NCBI GenBank assembly: GCA_938010045.1
Contig: CALLFZ010000034.1
Location: 62,001 to 126,000 of the forward strand
DNA from: an uncultured bacterium
GTDB lineage: Bacteria; Verrucomicrobiota; Kiritimatiellia; PWTM01
Direction: 5' to 3'
DNA length: 64,000 nucleotides
The position numbers and the translations under genes were made by a program. The notes beneath the pieces are model-generated. The model was not told where the DNA came from and did no database searches. It was given only the letters and a program-made list of their open reading frames with translations. Positions 17,030 through 49,034 of the stretch are shown one piece after another; positions within the stretch are counted from its first letter, which is position 1; every line of letters starts with the position of its first letter.

Positions 17030-18556
17030 TCATTCGGTCGGCGGCGCCAGCTGCGGATACCACAACTCCCCCGGCGGCACGCGGGGTCGCTCCCCATTCG
17101 GGGGCCGGCACGATTGCACGGCCATCCGCAAACGCGCCGACAGTTCCGCCACGGTGGCCGCATAGACCGGATTCTCGGCCAAGTTCGCCAGCTCGCGTGG
17201 ATCCTGCTCGTGATCGTACAGCTCGCGCCCCTCCCGCCCCTCGTCCCACTCCGTGTACCGCCAACGGTCGGTGCGAATCGAATAACCGAAGAAGGTCGCA
17301 TTGGTCATTCCGCTGCGATCGGCTGTCCGCACACGCCGCGAACGCGTCACTTGCGTCAACGCCCAACCGCGGCCTCGCTGCGAGGGATCGCGCAGCATCG
17401 GCACCAGGCTCTGCCCCTGAAGGTTCGTCGGCGCGCGCACGCCGCACAGCTCGGCCAAGGTCGGATACAGGTCCACCAGGCCAACCGGCGCCCGCACCAC
17501 TCCCCCCGGCACAGTAACGCCCGGCGCCACGATGATCAGCGGCACCCGTGCGCTCTCTTCAAACAAGCTCATCTTCTGCCATAACCCGTGCTCTCCCATG
17601 TGGTAGCCATGGTCGCTGGTGAATACGATCACGGTGTTGGTCGCCAGCCCCCGCCGGTCAAGCTCGTCCAGCACCCGACCGACCTGCGCATCCATAAACG
17701 TGATGCTCGCCAGATACGCCTGCCGGCACTGACGACGCAGTTCGTCCGTCAACTGATCCTGTTCACGCTTTCGGCTCATCAAGGCGGCGGCCGGAAGATC
17801 GCGCTGATCCTCCTCTACGCCCTCCACGATGGGCATCGAATGGCTCGGATACAGATCGAAATAATGCCGTGGCGCGACGAACGGCGTGTGTGGCCGGTAA
17901 AACCCGACGGCCAGAAAGAACGGCCGCTGCGGCTCCCGTGCCGCTCGCTCAAGTACCCAGGCCGCCTCGGTCGCGAGAATCCCGTCGGTGTGCAACAGGT
18001 CGCCTCGCGGCGACGCGTACCAGCTCAGTGTGCCGCCGAACTGTCCCGGCACCAGAGAAAAGATGTCCGGCTCCTCGAGCAGGCGGTCCACACCCGCCGG
18101 GTTGAACTGGACCTCCCAGGAGGCCGGATCGTCATGCCCGCTGGTCCCAATCGAGCCCGGCACGCCATAGTGATAGAGCTTGCCAATCCGCACGGCCCAC
18201 CCTCCGGCCAAGCGGAACGCCTGCGGCAGGCTCACGTGGTTCGGAATCGTCTGCCGGAACACCTCCCCGTTGCGCAGGATGCCCGTCGTATCCGGATACA
18301 ACCCCGTCAAAAATGAATTGCGGCTCGGCCCGCACAGCGGGAACTGACAGTACGCTCGCTCGAACCTCACCCCGCGCTCAGCGAGTCGGTCGATGTTCGG
18401 CGACCTCACCATCGGGTCGCCATAGCAGCCGAGCATGTTGTTCAGGTCGTCGGCGATGAGCCACAGCACGTTCATGCGCGGCGGTTGCGCCGCAACGCTC
18501 GCCATCGCGGACACGACCGCCGCTCCCACGCCCACCAGACCACGTACTCGGCTCAT
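17030..18556 (-). CDS. Iduronate-2-sulfatase-like S1 sulfatase, exported
   Basis: A 508-aa secreted sulfatase resembling iduronate-2-sulfatase (MNVLWLIADDLNNMLGCYGD near the start). A signal peptide covers about residues 1-23. The metal-binding Asp-Asp is in IADDLNN, the formylglycine site is Cys75 in CGPSRNSFLTG, and later metal/substrate residues lie in FTSDHGYHMGEHG with the WQKMSLFEESARVPLI segment. All key residues are present, so it is probably active once its Cys is converted by an FGE or anSME encoded elsewhere. ATG 18556 overlaps the stop of the preceding sulfatase (ATGA). Probable target is a sulfated uronic-acid-type sugar, inferred from the subfamily only. Confidence 0.9.
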   Translation of the reverse strand: MSRVRGLVGVGAAVVSAMASVAAQPPRMNVLWLIADDLNNMLGCYGDPMVRSPNIDRLAERGVRFERAYCQFPLCGPSRNSFLTGLYPDTTGILRNGEVFRQTIPNHVSLPQAFRLAGGWAVRIGKLYHYGVPGSIGTSGHDDPASWEVQFNPAGVDRLLEEPDIFSLVPGQFGGTLSWYASPRGDLLHTDGILATEAAWVLERAAREPQRPFFLAVGFYRPHTPFVAPRHYFDLYPSHSMPIVEGVEEDQRDLPAAALMSRKREQDQLTDELRRQCRQAYLASITFMDAQVGRVLDELDRRGLATNTVIVFTSDHGYHMGEHGLWQKMSLFEESARVPLIIVAPGVTVPGGVVRAPVGLVDLYPTLAELCGVRAPTNLQGQSLVPMLRDPSQRGRGWALTQVTRSRRVRTADRSGMTNATFFGYSIRTDRWRYTEWDEGREGRELYDHEQDPRELANLAENPVYAATVAELSARLRMAVQSCRPPNGERPRVPPGELWYPQLAPPTE

Positions 18557-19980
18557 CACCGCTCTCCCGTTGCGGTCCCCGCCCGCCGTACCCGGATCGG
18601 CCAATCCTCCGACTCGGTCCGCGCCTCCTTCAAATACGCCGCGATCCGTGCCACGATCTCCGGATGCGCCGCCGCCACGTCCTTCGTCTCCCCAAGGTCA
18701 TTCGACAAATCATAGAGCTGGATCGGCCCGTCGAGCCCCCCCTCCCGAATCCCCTTCCATCGCCCCTCCCACAACGCCGCCTGCGAGAACCCGCGCTCGT
18801 GAAACTCCCAATACAGCCATTCATGCCGCCGTTGCGCCGCCTCGTCCCCACGCAGCGTCGGCGCAAAACTGACTGAATCCAGTCCCGATGGCGGCTCGAC
18901 GCCCGCCAACTCGCACACCGTGGCAAACCAGTCGCCCAAATACGCCACATGATCCGTCAAGCGCCCGGGTCGGATCACGCCGGGCCACCATGCGATCGCC
19001 GGTACCCGGATGCCGCCCTCGGTGAGACTTCGCTTCATTCCCCGCAGCGGACCGCTCGGCCGAAAGCGATCGGGGTTGTGCCGACTCTCATTGTGCGGCC
19101 CATTGTCGCTCGAAAAGAACACGAGAGTCCGCTCGGACAGACCGAGATCCCCCAGCCGGTCGAGCAGCCGCCCGACGTGCGCGTCCAACCGCGTAATCAT
19201 CGCCGCATGCCCCTGGTCCTGCGGTGGCCAGTCCATCTCGGCGTACGGTCCGTAGTCCGGCACGTGCGCGCCGTCCCCCAGCACCCTCGCACGCTCGTTG
19301 TTCGCGTGCGGCGTCACCAGCGACCAGAAGAGGAAAAAGGGACGATCGCGGTTCCGCTCGACAAAGGCCAGACATTCCTCCGCAAATCGGTCGTCCGCAT
19401 AGACCACGGCGTTCGTCGCGTAGCCGCCGCCCGCGTCCCCCACCGGCACCACCTCGTTCGGCCACGGTTCGCGCTGCTCATTCCGCCACACGAAATCGGG
19501 AAAGTGATTGTGCGCATGAACCTGGCTCAGATAACCATAGAATTCGTCAAACCCCTGACGACGCGGCAGTCCGCACTCCGCCGGTCCAACATCTCCGAGC
19601 CCCCACTTGCCGACGAGCGCGGTCCGATAACCCGCACGTTGCAGCACCTTGGCCACTGTCACGTCCTCCACCCGCAGCGCTTGGCTCAACGGCTGGTCCT
19701 TGTTCGCGTTTCCGCGCACCCGCGTCCGCCCGTGATGCTGGCCGGTCATCAGCACGCTGCGCGACGGCGCGCACACAGTCGCGCCCGCGTAAAACTGCGC
19801 GAAGCGCAACCCCTCCGCCGCCATCCGGTCGAGCCGCGGTGTGCGGATCAGCGCTTGACCGTAACACCCAAGCTCGCCGTACCCGAGGTCGTCTGCAAGA
19901 ATGAAGACGAAGTTCGGACGCCCCGCCATCGCCGCGGCCGCGGCCAGCATGAACAACACTCCCGATATCGCACGAATCAT
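18556..19980 (-). CDS. Arylsulfatase-type S1 sulfatase, exported
   Basis: First gene of a two-sulfatase operon (474 aa). Signal peptide MIRAISGVLFMLAAAAAMAG, then NFVFILADDLGYGELGCYG with the metal-binding Asp pair, and Cys70 in CAPSRSVLMTGQ as the formylglycine precursor with the canonical C-x-P-S-R. VGKWGLGD, VTPHANNERA and FSSDNGPHNE complete the active site. ATG 19980 was selected over a 92-codon upstream extension because AAGGAGGTG sits 6 nt before it and a signal peptide begins there. A predicted promoter (20007-20035) and the paired palindrome (20087-20131) lie upstream. Substrate unknown. Confidence 0.92.
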   Translation of the reverse strand: MIRAISGVLFMLAAAAAMAGRPNFVFILADDLGYGELGCYGQALIRTPRLDRMAAEGLRFAQFYAGATVCAPSRSVLMTGQHHGRTRVRGNANKDQPLSQALRVEDVTVAKVLQRAGYRTALVGKWGLGDVGPAECGLPRRQGFDEFYGYLSQVHAHNHFPDFVWRNEQREPWPNEVVPVGDAGGGYATNAVVYADDRFAEECLAFVERNRDRPFFLFWSLVTPHANNERARVLGDGAHVPDYGPYAEMDWPPQDQGHAAMITRLDAHVGRLLDRLGDLGLSERTLVFFSSDNGPHNESRHNPDRFRPSGPLRGMKRSLTEGGIRVPAIAWWPGVIRPGRLTDHVAYLGDWFATVCELAGVEPPSGLDSVSFAPTLRGDEAAQRRHEWLYWEFHERGFSQAALWEGRWKGIREGGLDGPIQLYDLSNDLGETKDVAAAHPEIVARIAAYLKEARTESEDWPIRVRRAGTATGER

Positions 19981-20086: not shown

Positions 20087-20131
20087 TCCAAGGTTTGGAC
20101 ACCACCATCTCCATCCCATCCAATGGCGGGA
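20087..20131. promoter_or_regulatory. Paired palindromic operator, 32-bp repeat distance (sulfatase operon)
   Basis: A perfect palindrome GTCCAAGGTTTGGAC (core 20087-20099) and a half-conserved copy TCCAATGGCGGGA (20119-20131) start exactly 32 bp apart. The perfect copy is nearer the sulfatase start at 19980. The same pair with the same spacing occurs at 33149-33193 and 48990-49034. Confidence 0.6.
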
Positions 20132-20433
20132 AACTCTTCACCCCAGATGCGTCCGAGTGCTGGAATCTGCGCTCGAAACGCAGGGGCGCGCGGCGACGGT
20201 GCCGAAGGGCCGAACTGCGCGTTCACCGCATCGAACCTCGCCGCCCTTCTCGGCAAAGCTCGATCGGTTCAACGCGATGAGACGGCGGTCGTCCGGTCGC
20301 CCGCACCATCCGCACACGACCGACACACAGCCGGTGCGCCCGTTCGTTGCGCCGCGGGACGCCCGCAGATCCGACTCCAAGCCGCCTCCCTACCGAACCA
20401 CCGGCCGGGCCCGCTTCGATGGCAGCCGCACGG

Positions 20434-32148: not shown

Positions 32149-33114
32149 TCACCATGTTGCACCGATGCCCAGCGACACGAACACACCATCCCCACGGATT
32201 TCCTGGTGGATCACCCACCGCTCGCCGGGCTGCGCGTCCTCATCGCCCTCACCATACACGAGGTTCTTCGAATCTCCCTCCACCTCGAACGCCCACCACC
32301 TCACCGACGCCATCAGATGCCACCGTGGCGACAGCTGATACCGCACCGCGAGTTCCACGCCGCCGCCGACGCCCCCCGCATCCGCTTCCGCGAGGATTCC
32401 CCGCCCCAGATGATCGTCGCGGTCACGCACCCGCGCCACGGGCGACAGAAACGCCCGTCCCTCGATACGAACTGTCGGCTGGCTCAACCCCAGCACCACC
32501 TCTGCGAACGGCAGATCCGTGGTGACGTCATACGTCACCGCCACCCCCTCCCACGTGTCGGGCGGCACGTCCGGAATGGCCGGATACGTCTGCACACCGT
32601 CGCGCGCCTCCCATGCATGGGAGTCCCTCGCCCAGCCCGCTCCAACCGCGGCCGACCACTCCTGCCCGCCGGGCCGTGGGCGCCGCCAGAACCACCACCG
32701 CACCCCACCCTCAAGGCTCCACGCCGAGTAGATCGCGTCACTCTCTGAGTAAATCGCCAGCACAGGGTTCTCCTCCGGGTACTCCCAATCCGAATCGCGG
32801 ATTGTGCCCGCGTCCTCGGTGAGTGTATGGCCTCCGCGCATCCAGAGTTCCCACGCCCGCCCCACCTGCGCGCGAAGCCACCCCTCGGCGCGGATCGCGC
32901 GGGTCGGAAACTCGAGCCGGCTGATCGGAAACGGCAACGACTCCGTCTTGCCACCCGCGCGAACCCACCGGCCGATGGCATACTGCACTTCCCCCTCGCC
33001 GTAGGCAGGCCCGAGCCCTGCCTCCCACCGAAAACCGCCCACCTCGGCCCTTGCTGCGGCCACCAGAATGGTCAACGCTGCCGCCACACCGCCCATTCCA
33101 TGGTATCGCTGCAC
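32149..33114 (-). CDS. Omptin-family outer-membrane protease
   Basis: A 321-aa protein with a signal peptide (about residues 1-23) and a beta-rich, Trp/Tyr-rich mature part of omptin length. Both halves of the omptin active site can be aligned by eye: IRDSDWEYPEENP (Asp107, Asp109) corresponds to OmpT M-R-D-Q-D-W with Asp83/Asp85, and RDDHLGRG (Asp233, His235) corresponds to OmpT Asp210/His212. The end GDGVFVSLGIGATW is a typical barrel C-terminus with terminal aromatic. Omptins are aspartate/histidine proteases of the outer-membrane surface, known best from Proteobacteria. GTG 33114 was chosen because GGAGG lies 4 nt upstream and a signal peptide follows. Two perfect copies of the 13-bp palindrome lie 35-79 bp upstream. 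Confidence 0.8.
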   Translation of the reverse strand: MQRYHGMGGVAAALTILVAAARAEVGGFRWEAGLGPAYGEGEVQYAIGRWVRAGGKTESLPFPISRLEFPTRAIRAEGWLRAQVGRAWELWMRGGHTLTEDAGTIRDSDWEYPEENPVLAIYSESDAIYSAWSLEGGVRWWFWRRPRPGGQEWSAAVGAGWARDSHAWEARDGVQTYPAIPDVPPDTWEGVAVTYDVTTDLPFAEVVLGLSQPTVRIEGRAFLSPVARVRDRDDHLGRGILAEADAGGVGGGVELAVRYQLSPRWHLMASVRWWAFEVEGDSKNLVYGEGDEDAQPGERWVIHQEIRGDGVFVSLGIGATW

Positions 33115-33148: not shown

Positions 33149-33193
33149 TCCAATCCTTGGACGCTCCTCCGGCCGGTCCGTCCAATCCTTGGA
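33149..33193. promoter_or_regulatory. Paired palindromic operator, 32-bp repeat distance (omptin gene)
   Basis: Two identical perfect palindromes GTCCAATCCTTGGAC (cores 33149-33161 and 33181-33193) start exactly 32 bp apart. The proximal copy ends 34 nt before the omptin GTG, too close to fit a full promoter between, so it probably overlaps the promoter. Confidence 0.65.
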
Positions 33194-33209: not shown

Positions 33210-34493
33210 TCAGCCACCCGCGCCCTTGAACGACGCCACGGCCGCGACGGCAAGAACCACGATCAGCATCGCACTGAGCCATCCGATCATCCGCCGAACG
33301 CACCGCGCGCCGCCCGCGGCGACCATACCATACTTCACGACCGTGTTCGCCGCCGCCGCGGTCAGCACCGCCGGCGCAAGCCAGGGATCGGCGGCCCGCC
33401 GAGCACTCTCCGCCAGCGACAGTGTGATCGCGTCCACATCCGTCACTCCAGCCAACGCCGCCGCCGCCAGCAGCCCCACGCCGGGCAGCGCCCCGCGCAC
33501 CAACCGCACCAGGGCCGCGATACCGACGAACATCGCCGCAAACTTCATCGCCGCGCCCAGACTGAACGGGTTCTTCAGCGGCACCTCACCGGCCGCGCGG
33601 ACCACTGCCCGCCGCCCGGCGAACACGCCGGCCAACGCACACACCCCGAGCGAAAGCCCCAGCCCGGGCCACAACGCGGCGAACAACGGCGGCGCCGTAA
33701 TCAACAGAATCGCCCCAATCCGCCCGAACATCACCGCCCACGCCCATGCAATGCCGGCCGCCGCAGCCGACGCGATCGTCTCGTCCCCCGCCCGGCTCTG
33801 CCTCGCCAGCGACATCGTCACCGCCGTGGACGACACCAGCCCGCCAAAGACACCCGTGGTCAACACGCCCCGCGCCGGCCCAAGCCAGCGCGTCGCGATG
33901 TAGCCCACCATCGAGAGCGCCGAAATCAGCACCACCAACCACCACGCCCGGTAGGGATTCAGAACCTGCCACGGGTCCACGGTGCGGTTCGGCAGCAGCG
34001 GAAGAACCACGAAGGTCGCGATCAACAGTTTCAGCCCCGCGTACAGATCGCTGCGATCCAGCCGTCCCACCATCTCGTGAAGCGGGGTCCGGTACGCCAT
34101 CACCGCCGAATTGAGAATCGCGAGTGCCACGGCCAGCAGAGGCGGCTCCTGCATCGCCAGCCCGCCGAGCAGAAAGGCGCTGATCAGCGCCGCCGAGGTC
34201 GTCAGCCCCGCATGGTCGGGATGCGCGCGCGCCTGCGCTGTCATTGCGCCGCCCACCAGCACGGCCACCGCGAGCAGACCCGCCGCAAACAGCCACGACC
34301 ACCCAGTCGTTTGGGCCAGACACATCGCCACCGCGCCGGACTCCGCCACCAACACGAACGTGCGGATCCCCCCGATCCCGTAGCCCTTCTCCGCGATGCG
34401 CTTCTCGCGCTCGATCCCGAGCAGCGCGCCGATGAAGATCGCGACGACAAACCCGCGGATCATCTCCACCGACATGCCGCTCTCCATCCGCAT
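33210..34493 (-). CDS. MgtC/DUF4010-type membrane protein
   Basis: A 427-aa integral membrane protein with about 12 hydrophobic segments. The N-terminal 140 residues are MgtC/SapB-like (FIGALLGIEREKR, GIGGIRTFVLV), and the remainder matches the DUF4010 extension (VLTTGVFGGLVSSTAVTMSLAR, LAGVTDVDAITLSLAES). Members are widespread and their transported ion or role is unknown. ATG 34493 has GGAGG 5 nt upstream; ATG 34475 is an alternative. 25 bp downstream of msrA on the same strand. Confidence 0.88.
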   Translation of the reverse strand: MRMESGMSVEMIRGFVVAIFIGALLGIEREKRIAEKGYGIGGIRTFVLVAESGAVAMCLAQTTGWSWLFAAGLLAVAVLVGGAMTAQARAHPDHAGLTTSAALISAFLLGGLAMQEPPLLAVALAILNSAVMAYRTPLHEMVGRLDRSDLYAGLKLLIATFVVLPLLPNRTVDPWQVLNPYRAWWLVVLISALSMVGYIATRWLGPARGVLTTGVFGGLVSSTAVTMSLARQSRAGDETIASAAAAGIAWAWAVMFGRIGAILLITAPPLFAALWPGLGLSLGVCALAGVFAGRRAVVRAAGEVPLKNPFSLGAAMKFAAMFVGIAALVRLVRGALPGVGLLAAAALAGVTDVDAITLSLAESARRAADPWLAPAVLTAAAANTVVKYGMVAAGGARCVRRMIGWLSAMLIVVLAVAAVASFKGAGG

Positions 34494-42284: not shown

Positions 42285-42376
42285 TGGCGGAAGGGGTGGG
42301 ATTCGAACCCACGGGGCACGGTTAAGCGCCCTCTCGATTTCGAGTCGAGTGCCTTAAACCACTCAGCCACCCTTCC
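42285..42376 (-). tRNA. tRNA-Ser(CGA)
   Basis: A class II tRNA of 92 nt including an encoded CCA (rc of 42285-42287). Acceptor GGAAGGG pairs with CCCTTCC; the anticodon stem CTCGA/TCGAG encloses the loop CTCGAAA with anticodon CGA (rc of 42340-42342). A long variable arm (GGGCGC...GTGCCC) and T-arm GGGTTCGAATCCC follow. It reads the Ser codon UCG. Confidence 0.97.
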
Positions 42377-45256: not shown

Positions 45257-46596
45257 ACTACGGCTCGACTCCTCTTTCCCGCCGGCGGTTTCTGCACCTC
45301 GTTACCGCTCTGCCTCCGGCCTTTGCCGCTTCCGTCCGCGAAGGCACCGCTGCGCTCGCGCCACCCTCCGAACGCATCCAGGTGGCCCTCATCGGATGCG
45401 GAATGATGGGCAGCGGCCACCTGAACTACTTGCTTGGGCGAGGTGACGTTCAGATCGTCGCCGTCTGCGACCCCGACCGTACTCGCCGCGACATCGCGCT
45501 TCGCACCGCTCATTCCGCGACCTCCGGCACCGGACGCGGCTGCCTCGCGCGAAACGACTATCGCGATGTGCTGGCCCGCAACGACGTCGACGCCGTCGTC
45601 ATCGTCACGCCCGATCACTGGCACTCGATCATCGCGGCAGACGCCGCCCGCGCGGGCAAAGATGTCTATTGCGAAAAACCGGTCTCGCTCACGCTCGCGC
45701 AAGGGCGCCGCCTCGCCGACATCGTTCGGGCATACGGAATTGTTTTCCAGACCGGTACCCAGTACCGCTCGGGACGGGCGATCCGGCGCGTCTGTCAGTT
45801 GGTTCGTTCCGGTGGCCTCGGCCGCGTGCGGCAGGTGTTCACGCTCTGGGGCCGCATCCACGGACTTCCCTATCCTCACAATCCGTCGTTGCCCCCCGAG
45901 CCCGTGCCGGAGGGCCTTGACTGGAACTTGTGGGTCGGCCCCGCCCCCGGGCGACCCTACAACTCCGCCTACCACCGAAACCCGCCGCCCGGGGTCGTAC
46001 CGTGGTGTTTCTGCGAGGATTTCGGCGTCGGCGCCGTCACCGCCCACCATTCGCACAGCGCCGATGTGATCCAGTATGCTCTCGGTGTCGAACGCAGCGG
46101 CCCGATCGAAATCCTCCACCCCGAGGACAGCGACGTACCCACCCTGACCTGCCGCTACGCCGACGGCACATCTCTGCACATGGTCGAACGTTGGGAGGAC
46201 GTCTCCCGACTGTACGGCGCGGTGCCCGCCGACGCCGCGCTCGCCGGCAACTTCGGCGGCGTGTTCGTCGGCGACCGGGGCTGGCTCACGTCGATGTCCG
46301 GCGCCCCTATTCGCGGCGGGCCGCCCGACCTACTTCACGAACTCGGCTTGGAATCGCTCGATCCCTCCGGCTTTCACCGGCACTACGACGACTGGCTCGA
46401 TGCCGTGCGCTCCCGCGGCCCTACGAGTACAGACGCCGAACTCGGCCACCGCGCCGCCGCGCTCGGCCATCTCATCATCGCCGCCTTTCGCCTGGGACGT
46501 TCACTTCGGTGGGACCCTGCCGCCGAAGAGTTCCGGGACGATGACGAAGCCAACCGCCTGCGCGACGTTGCGCTGCGCCCGCCGTGGACCCTCTAA
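45253..46596 (+). CDS. Gfo/Idh/MocA oxidoreductase with Tat signal
   Basis: A 447-aa NAD(P)-dependent sugar or cyclitol dehydrogenase-type protein. The N-terminus has a twin-arginine signal (SRRRFLHLVTALPPAFA), so the folded, cofactor-loaded enzyme should be exported. The Rossmann motif VALIGCGMMGSGHL and the dinucleotide-domain end KDVYCEKPVSLTLAQGR (conserved E-K-P) are clear. LDWNLWVGPAPGRPYNSAYH and HHSHSADVIQYALG are typical of the large planctomycete-type exported subgroup. Middle gene of the ThuA-Gfo/Idh-HEAT operon, overlapping both neighbours. Confidence 0.92.
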   Translation: MNYGSTPLSRRRFLHLVTALPPAFAASVREGTAALAPPSERIQVALIGCGMMGSGHLNYLLGRGDVQIVAVCDPDRTRRDIALRTAHSATSGTGRGCLARNDYRDVLARNDVDAVVIVTPDHWHSIIAADAARAGKDVYCEKPVSLTLAQGRRLADIVRAYGIVFQTGTQYRSGRAIRRVCQLVRSGGLGRVRQVFTLWGRIHGLPYPHNPSLPPEPVPEGLDWNLWVGPAPGRPYNSAYHRNPPPGVVPWCFCEDFGVGAVTAHHSHSADVIQYALGVERSGPIEILHPEDSDVPTLTCRYADGTSLHMVERWEDVSRLYGAVPADAALAGNFGGVFVGDRGWLTSMSGAPIRGGPPDLLHELGLESLDPSGFHRHYDDWLDAVRSRGPTSTDAELGHRAAALGHLIIAAFRLGRSLRWDPAAEEFRDDDEANRLRDVALRPPWTL

Positions 46597-48971
46597 TGCA
46601 CCACGCCGTCCAACGTCGCTCCTCCGTGGTTCGCCGCCGCGTGGCCGCCGGCATCGTCATCCTTGGAGCGTGCGCCAGGGCGGACATCGCCGTCGGCGTG
46701 GAAGCGCTGGCTCTTCTTCCCCATCAGACCCTCGGCCAAACGTTCATCGCCACGGGCATGCTCCGAGCCATCCGCGTCGTACTGCCCACCTGGCAAAGCT
46801 CCAACGCCGCCGCCACGCTGTCGCTCTGGAGCTCCACCGACCGGGTCGAGCGCCTCGTGAGCCGACGCCTCTCCAACATCGCCGACAACGCGGAAATCCG
46901 ATTGGCTCTTCGCCGTCCCGCTCCGCCCGGCTCGTATCTCTGGGAGCTCAGCGAACCGGGCGCGGAGGGCCACGTGGGTGTCTACGCCGATCCCGTCACC
47001 ACGCCCCGCGCCGGTTGGGCGGTCACGATCGGGACCGGCGTCAATCCCACCCTCCAGTTCCGCTTTCGAACCGAAGAGACACCCCTCCCCGCCGTCCTCA
47101 TCGCACGGCTAGGGGAAACGACGAACGTGTTCGATAGGATCGAAAGCGCCCGCTCGCTCGCGCTCTGCGCCGACGCCGACCATCTCGAGGCGCTCGCCCC
47201 GCTGCTCGTGGACGACGAGCGCTCTCACGCGGCACGGATCGTATTCGAGGCCATCCCGGATGCCCGCGCCAACGCTCGACTTCGAACCGCGCTACCCCAC
47301 GCCACCGGCCCGAGCCGCGTAGGCATCCTGCACTCGCTCGGGCGCCGCCGCGACGCCGATGCGGTCTCGTGGATCGCGCCGCTTCTCGACGATGCGGACC
47401 TGGCGGTGGCCTCGGCCGCGGCATGGGCCCTCGGCCGCATCGGCACCGCGGAGGCCGCACAGGCCCTCGAAGACGCATGGCGGCGAAGCGCGCCATCCTT
47501 CGACCCCGCGCGTCGCCATGCCCTCGCCGATGCTCTCGTCGACGCCGCACGCGCTCTCGAACATCACGACCCCGCTCTCGGCCGTCGGTTGTTCGAGTGT
47601 CTCGCCGAAGCGACGCTGGCTACACCCGCAGCCTCCGCGGCATGGCTCGGCCTCTGCCGCCTCGACGCCGACGCGGCCGTGCGACGGCTCGCCCACTGGG
47701 TCGCAGCCGGCCCCGACACCCACCGGCGCCTCGCCCTCTGGGCACTTCAACATGACCTGCCCGGCTCCAACGTGACCGCCGCCGCCATCGCTCAACTCGC
47801 CGCCCTGCCGAACGAGGCGGCGGCCGCGTGGGCCGCCGCGCTCGCGCGCCGCGCAGACCCAACCGCATGGCGGCCGTTCTTCGCCGCGCTAACCAATGCC
47901 TCGCCAGAGATCCACCGCGCCGTGATCTCTGCCCTGCTGGACTGGCCGCCGAACGATTCGGTCGCCGCGTATCTCATCGATCGGCTCACCGACACCGATG
48001 CGAGTGGCGCCGACGAAGCGGCCGGCCGCCTCGAACGCCTCGAATGGAGCGTGGTGGATCGCATGCTCGCTGAACGACTCCAGTCATCCGGCGCCGTTGC
48101 CTCCGCCAACTACCTTCTCCGCGTGGCCGCCCGACGAAGATCCCGAGAGGCCACCGCCGCCGTCTGGACCGCGGCCCGTTCGCATCCCGATCCGGCGCTC
48201 CGCGCCCTGTGCGCCCGCGCCCTCGGCGAGATCGCCGACCCCACCGCGGCCAATGACCTCGCCGATCTCCTGGCCGCCGCCGGCAATGACGAATCCATGC
48301 TGACGGCCCTCACCCACGCATGGCGGACGGCGTTGAACCGCTGGCCGGATCGTGACGCCGCCCTCCGCACCTTGCGCGGCCGATGGGCCGCCCTCGCGCC
48401 CGCCGCACGCATCGCCGTGCTGCGCACGGCGTCATCCGACGGCGGTGCCGAAGCAGCCGATCTGGCCTTCTTCGCACTCGAGGACCCGTCGGGCGCCGTA
48501 CGGGCTGAGGCGGTCCGCCGGTTGTCCGAATGGCCCTCGCCCCTCGTGCTTCCGCGACTCGTCGAGCTGGCGGGCAACATCAGCCATACCGAGGCGCGTT
48601 CGCTCTTGCTTCAAGGCGCCCTGCGGCTGGCGGCCTCAACGAACATTCCGCCCGATCAGCGCAGCAGGTACCTCGTCCAACTCGATCCCTTGCTGGCTTC
48701 CCCCGCCGAACGTCGCGCATGGCTCGCGGCCGCCACGGTGCCCGACCACGCCCTGCTCGAGCGGGTGCGCCCGATGTTGAACGATCCCGAACTCCGCGCC
48801 GAGGCCGCGCGATCCGCGCTGAGCATGGCCGAGGCTCTCCTCGACCCGGCCGGCCCACCCGATGCCGCCGCGATCGACACGCTGCGTTCGCTGGCCGACC
48901 AGACCGATCTCGCCGACGTCACGCAACGTGCCCGAGCGCGCCTGGAGCGCTACAGGAAACCCGCACAATGA
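46596..48971 (+). CDS. HEAT-repeat protein with N-terminal beta domain
   Basis: A 791-aa exported protein: signal region in residues about 15-30, a beta-rich N-terminal domain to about residue 165, then at least a dozen HEAT-like helical repeats (for example SLGRRRDADAVSWIAPLLDD, VASAAAWALGRIGTAEAAQAL, LRALCARALGEIADPTAA). It has no catalytic motif and is probably a scaffold for the coupled oxidoreductase. ATG 46596 shares one nt with the preceding stop (TAATG). It is homologous in its repeats to the protein at 55927-57972, which also follows a Gfo/Idh gene. Confidence 0.7.
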   Translation: MHHAVQRRSSVVRRRVAAGIVILGACARADIAVGVEALALLPHQTLGQTFIATGMLRAIRVVLPTWQSSNAAATLSLWSSTDRVERLVSRRLSNIADNAEIRLALRRPAPPGSYLWELSEPGAEGHVGVYADPVTTPRAGWAVTIGTGVNPTLQFRFRTEETPLPAVLIARLGETTNVFDRIESARSLALCADADHLEALAPLLVDDERSHAARIVFEAIPDARANARLRTALPHATGPSRVGILHSLGRRRDADAVSWIAPLLDDADLAVASAAAWALGRIGTAEAAQALEDAWRRSAPSFDPARRHALADALVDAARALEHHDPALGRRLFECLAEATLATPAASAAWLGLCRLDADAAVRRLAHWVAAGPDTHRRLALWALQHDLPGSNVTAAAIAQLAALPNEAAAAWAAALARRADPTAWRPFFAALTNASPEIHRAVISALLDWPPNDSVAAYLIDRLTDTDASGADEAAGRLERLEWSVVDRMLAERLQSSGAVASANYLLRVAARRRSREATAAVWTAARSHPDPALRALCARALGEIADPTAANDLADLLAAAGNDESMLTALTHAWRTALNRWPDRDAALRTLRGRWAALAPAARIAVLRTASSDGGAEAADLAFFALEDPSGAVRAEAVRRLSEWPSPLVLPRLVELAGNISHTEARSLLLQGALRLAASTNIPPDQRSRYLVQLDPLLASPAERRAWLAAATVPDHALLERVRPMLNDPELRAEAARSALSMAEALLDPAGPPDAAAIDTLRSLADQTDLADVTQRARARLERYRKPAQ

Positions 48972-48989: not shown

Positions 48990-49034
48990 TCCAAGGATGG
49001 GACCTCACCCCGCTCGTCGTCTCCAAGCTTTGGA
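48990..49034. promoter_or_regulatory. Paired palindromic operator, 32-bp repeat distance (secreted barrel protein)
   Basis: An imperfect copy TCCAAGGATGGGA (48990-49002) and a perfect palindrome TCCAAGCTTTGGA (49022-49034) start exactly 32 bp apart. The perfect copy ends 41 nt before GTG 49076. The arrangement mirrors that at the sulfatase operon: imperfect distal, perfect proximal. Confidence 0.6.

Follow-up and report, generated by a model that had tools for sequence, protein, structure and literature searches.

Helically phased palindrome pairs in the Kiritimatiellia as candidate chromosome-organising sites

The palindrome TCCAA-N3-TTGGA, set in pairs or longer arrays, is a real, clade-wide and apparently undescribed element of the class Kiritimatiellia. 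On balance we lean slightly towards regarding the pairs as genome-wide sites at which a candidate dimeric DNA-binding protein would act to organise the chromosome. The number of sites against the control pattern (152 to 0), their exclusive pairing, phasing and even spacing, their independence of gap type, their conservation within genes and a switch of motif in one species (G240) all support this reading. That the binder would be dimeric, would act cooperatively and would have an architectural function is what we infer from this arrangement.

Three pairs had been reported in the window, the stretch of 64,000 nucleotides analysed here, and all three were found at the positions given for them, Table 1. 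The first had been described as lying in a gap with no gene. This is correct for pairs 1 and 2 while pair 3 overlaps the called start of the following ORF, which is probably a mis-called start. No evidence was found that pair 1 regulates the adjoining sulfatase gene. No known structured RNA family in Rfam matched at the pairs, the sole Rfam match in the window being a tRNA gene at 42288-42376 on the minus strand.

Table 1. Palindrome pairs of the window and their adjoining genes (positions in the window).
Feature	Position	Strand	Detail
Palindrome pair 1	20087..20131	.	TCCAAGGTTTGGA at 20087-20099, perfect; TCCAATGGCGGGA at 20119-20131, 2 mismatches; spacing 32 bp; divergent gap with sulfatase gene on one side and RnfC-like gene on the other
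Possible degenerate third copy after pair 1	20152..20164	.	2 mismatches; 33 bp past the second copy; weak, could be of chance origin
Palindrome pair 2	33149..33193	.	TCCAATCCTTGGA at both 33149 and 33181, each perfect; 3' end of MgtC/DUF4010 gene 16 bp away, start of omptin gene 34 bp away
Palindrome pair 3	48990..49034	.	TCCAAGGATGGGA at 48990, 1 mismatch; TCCAAGCTTTGGA at 49022, perfect; starts 19 bp past the stop codon of the HEAT-repeat gene
Sulfatase gene adjoining pair 1	18556..19980	-	context
Omptin-family gene adjoining pair 2	32149..33114	-	context only
MgtC/DUF4010 membrane protein gene	33210..34493	-	ends 16 bp from pair 2; context only
HEAT-repeat protein gene	46584..48971	+	ends 19 bp before pair 3; context only

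The genome to which the window belongs, G000 (3.2 Mb in 49 contigs), was searched and sampled in stretches. It contains 152 perfect single sites and no copy of the reversed control pattern. Pairs at 32 bp number 75 when at most one mismatch is allowed and about 100 when at most three are allowed, the latter figure coming from 103 forward and 101 reverse listings since the pattern finds each pair about once per strand. The spacing is exclusive, with 104 of 106 neighbour counts falling at 32 bp in the 716 kb fetched around the pairs. A blind search of 158 kb for any palindrome with 5-bp arms also ranked TCCAA-N3-TTGGA with its 32-bp step first among the pairs, its single sites being some 660-fold over expectation. 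The exact 32-bp pairing noted in the preliminary description is thus borne out across the genome, and its suggestion of two dimers on one DNA face fits a paired dyad separated by three turns, the binder itself being a prediction. No description of the motif was found in the literature searched. The central base of N3 is G or C in 150 of the 152 perfect sites and a weak outer G..C lengthens the dyad to GTCCAA-NSN-TTGGAC. The spacer, the flanks and the inner N3 are not conserved and have almost no information content in G000, indicating that the copies there are not pasted repeats.

In three families the placement of pairs is more even than chance would give. In G000, 47 intervals separate neighbouring pairs, with a mean of 28 kb and a CV of 0.51 against 0.91 for random placement. 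So low a CV came up in 0 of 2000 simulations, and no interval is shorter than 5 kb where 7.5 such intervals would be expected. Regions of 4 kb on either side of the listed sites were fetched, so closer neighbours would have been detected. The stretches fetched cover some three-quarters of the G000 pairs with no more than three mismatches, and the map lacks pairs on unfetched stretches in which neither half is perfect. A stricter test, which took the outermost pairs on every contig as given, used 40 intervals with a mean of 26 kb and a minimum of 7.3 kb and yielded P<5e-5. The same conditioned test gave P=0.004 for G071, from another family, and even spacing was also found in G062, from a third (P=0.005; an earlier CV test on the same data gave P=0.09). 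Evenness was not significant in G087 (P=0.14, 10 intervals) and there was none among the mostly single sites of G381. Dividing genome size by the number of pairs or arrays gives about one per 27-51 kb in most of the genomes tabulated and one per 7-13 kb in family f3. G062 has one per 7 kb. The distribution is on the scale of the genome and independent of promoters, as for the sites of nucleoid-occlusion and macrodomain systems. All spacing was measured on draft contigs with the terminus not located.

Sampling of 388 genomes over the phylum found the pair in 42, all of them within the Kiritimatiellia, and no related arrays were found in the sampled genomes of other classes. A scan of named genomes listed at least 120 stretches, with Kiritimatiellae/Kiritimatiellia, Lentisphaerae and Verrucomicrobia among their titles. 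Perfect single sites range from 0 to 3347 per genome over 155 genomes of the class. The steps within arrays of the genomes examined are almost exclusively 22 bp (37 cases) and 30-33 bp (26, 73, 270 and 9 cases at 30, 31, 32 and 33 bp), which is to say two or three helical turns. Arrays in two genomes of other families have steps of 31 or 32 bp (G009) and of 22, 30 and 31 bp with up to seven palindromes per array (G087). The G087 loci L244-L263 show a stereotyped 22-31-31-30-22 layout with two core types (ACC/ATC). The highest count is that of G404 (6.7 Mb; loci L125-L240), where arrays fill most of the intergenic gaps sampled. G381, the one genome listed as a single contig (C1), carries 98 perfect sites, nearly all single and denser in the contig's second half. 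Only two sites were found in G265, a member of a genus with array-bearing species, so the system is dispensable.

In G240 the ordinary motif is absent from the 266 kb searched. The same DNA holds eight arrays, about one per 33 kb, made up of 33 sites that follow one another every 31 bp and read TTCCA[TC]TCAATGGAA or its complement. The outer arms and the geometry are those of the ordinary site and the core differs throughout. Two genus mates of G240 carry 116 and 89 ordinary sites, and G240 itself none. To judge from the sequences, this bears the mark of a concerted switch in which the putative binder changed its specificity together with its sites.

Gene starts and gap types were taken from a codon-based gene caller written for this analysis. 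The pairs of G000 proved to be strongly, though not exclusively, intergenic, with 62 of 74 (84%) lying between genes or at the edge of a stretch compared to about 13% of the DNA being intergenic. The other 12, about one in six, lie inside called ORFs. Two of these (L034 and pair 3 of the window) are at the very start of the ORF and may be start mis-calls. Eight others lie in genes which Pfam assigned to carA, RecD-like, RsmB-like, photolyase-related, GH127, GH106, C-methyltransferase and nucleotidyltransferase proteins, and the remaining two ORFs had no Pfam match. The pair in carA encodes part of the amidotransferase domain, in reading frame. Pairs or arrays were seen inside carA or within 100 bp of it in three genomes of two families: L085:3319 (G000), L300:2737-2845 (G050) and L260 (G087). 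Four intragenic pairs (L028/L278, L096/L284, L050/L296 and L086/L302) keep all 20 of 20 motif bases between G000 and its sister species G050 while the surrounding DNA is 61-78% identical. These four were chosen for their presence in both species and are therefore supportive rather than a calibrated test. A further two genes have a pair in both species where the alignment is too poor to equate the positions. The HemN gene, which contains a pair in two genomes, was rejected as a conserved site because the positions differ.

The preliminary description had proposed that the pairs control a regulon of exported proteins, sulfatases among them. Among the 63 genes lying downstream of a pair, 2 encode sulfatases, compared to 12 of 407 genes in other positions. 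A sulfatase or exported-enzyme regulon was rejected for this lack of enrichment. The families found downstream vary widely (CinA, Hsp70, aconitase, transketolase, RpoN and LpxK). Could a global transcription factor instead place two dimers upstream of some 100 promoters? An arrangement of dyads at three-turn intervals is typical of operators, the pairs of G000 are mostly intergenic, and in two or three genomes arrays precede a small number of homologous large enzymes by 18-90 bp. The arrays of G087 moreover look polar, mostly along the direction of the neighbouring tandem genes, which hints at a link to transcription there, gene calls in this genome being poor. Set against this, G000 pairs are about equally dense in gaps of all three types, tandem, divergent and convergent. 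Counted across eight genomes, arrays are present in 41 of 90 convergent gaps, 48 of 143 divergent gaps and 142 of 469 tandem gaps. Convergent gaps are filled at least as often as the other two types, whereas operators of promoters would be expected to be all but missing from them. Arrays in tandem gaps tend towards the 3' end of the upstream gene, housekeeping and metabolic genes are mixed around the pairs with no functional theme, pairs are conserved inside genes, and their even spacing is not what a regulon would lead one to expect. Sigma-54 (-24/-12) promoters were sought in the 400 bp around the pairs and are not in excess over random regions (47 hits against 37 with a loose threshold, 10 against 5 with a stricter one and 2 against 2 with the strictest), and NtrC-type sigma-54 enhancer pairs were rejected on this ground. 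A global regulon is thus unlikely, and the operator role first proposed for the pairs is not upheld. Phased palindromes are not necessarily operators, even where they precede interesting genes.

The position of arrays in tandem gaps, where 94 of 142 are closer to the 3' end of the upstream gene (P=1.4e-4, eight genomes), could instead indicate a 3'-end element, acting as a roadblock, insulator or terminator to separate transcription units. The densest of the genomes sampled has arrays in 11 of 13 convergent gaps, and most of these arrays are no more than about 55 bp from either stop codon. However, arrays fill divergent and tandem gaps with about equal frequency although no terminator is needed in the former, and a terminator hairpin was rejected on this ground. 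No T-tract follows the dyad in G000 and the fixed helical spacing points to double-stranded DNA. Sites inside genes, and a total of only about 100 evenly spaced sites per genome, also speak against a 3'-end element, which we consider quite unlikely.

A signal for genome maintenance or exchange (uptake, a hotspot for repair or recombination, or segregation), enriched by biased retention, would account for sites that are genome-wide, promoter-independent, both intergenic and intragenic, and clade-specific. An uptake signal would have to be denser than one site per roughly 30 kb, and the paired three-turn geometry would also be unusual for one. The ParB/parS system is separate, and we regard a signal of this kind as very unlikely. 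Least probable is a REP/BIME-like palindromic repeat dispersed by transposition: REP/BIME elements are extragenic paired palindromes near gene 3' ends, the copy number here varies widely among species and internal layouts are alike within the arrays of G087 and of G240, but no copied sequence lies between or around the dyads of G000, which excludes a pasted repeat in that genome, and pairs sit in reading frames (carA), some conserved between species, and are evenly spaced.

If the pairs are chromosome-organising sites, two dimers of a sequence-specific protein would dock at each pair, three turns apart and on the same face of the DNA. About 100 such sites would be held at roughly even intervals along the chromosome (about 26 kb between those mapped), and the protein might anchor loops or domains, condense the chromosome or mark the nucleoid for segregation or division. 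Sites would persist where genes are least disturbed, that is in intergenic DNA and near 3' ends, and sometimes in coding sequence. It is possible, if somewhat short of probable, that this amounts to an undescribed chromosome-organising system of the whole class, with a clade-specific protein on helically phased arrays at even intervals of tens of kb and a specificity that co-evolves with all of its sites. Several observations count against the organising reading. Site numbers across the class run from none to thousands per genome, the density of sites in G062 and G404 does not sit easily with a single anchor for each domain, and evenness is not significant in G087, whose arrays look polar, and absent in G381.

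Known systems resemble the pairs in part. The matS site of MatP is likewise a short palindrome repeated every tens of kb; it is confined to the Ter macrodomain and is not known to occur in phased pairs, unlike the sites described here. The NtrC enhancer pair at glnA and the NrdR box pairs have the same geometry of two dyads 31-32 bp apart on one DNA face. They differ from the present pairs in consensus and in number, being few promoter sites per genome, and NtrC also in the sigma-54 promoters which the present pairs lack in excess. The Noc (NBS) and SlmA (SBS) sites are short palindromes, tens of them scattered along the chromosome, to which a sequence-specific protein binds without forming a classical regulon, much like the pairs with their predicted binder. 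Both kinds of site are depleted in the terminus (PMC4726725). The pairs differ from these in their consensus, in forming three-turn pairs and arrays, and in being evenly spaced on the testable contigs, where the terminus was not located. The resemblance to the Noc, SlmA and MatP sites is a likeness in manner and need not mean kinship. HIP1 of cyanobacteria is also a highly iterated, clade-wide palindrome whose function is unclear; it is a single octamer, present in very high numbers and tied to methyltransferases, with no phased pairs at even long intervals (PMC4390886).

Candidates for the binder were sought in the ParB family and among array neighbours. ParB is ruled out as the chromosomal protein is present with or without the sites and the parS of the class, TGTTCCACGTGGAACA, differs from the pair motif and is also found in several array-bearing genomes. 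A Noc-like extra copy of ParB was rejected because no additional ParB-family copy correlates with the sites. The search of adjacent genes found no DNA-binding gene recurring beside arrays. The recurring neighbours are either large enzymes or housekeeping genes (carA, transketolase, EF-Ts, TyrRS, hisB and shikimate kinase), and an S24/LexA-like protein, MraZ, NikR and RpoN each occur as single cases near a pair.

It is uncommon for a specific DNA site to be evenly spaced along the whole of a bacterial chromosome. Were the sites domain anchors, the class would constitute a natural experiment, with species having no sites, about 100 or thousands and one having a switched motif, and would offer a sequence-defined handle on the size of chromosomal domains in bacteria together with an undescribed protein to find. 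Two IMG/VR contigs were also seen to carry a perfect pair, one (L242:90-134) at the start of a giant ORF of 2019 aa and the other (L243:7670-7714) inside a giant ORF of 2549 aa with a RadC domain.
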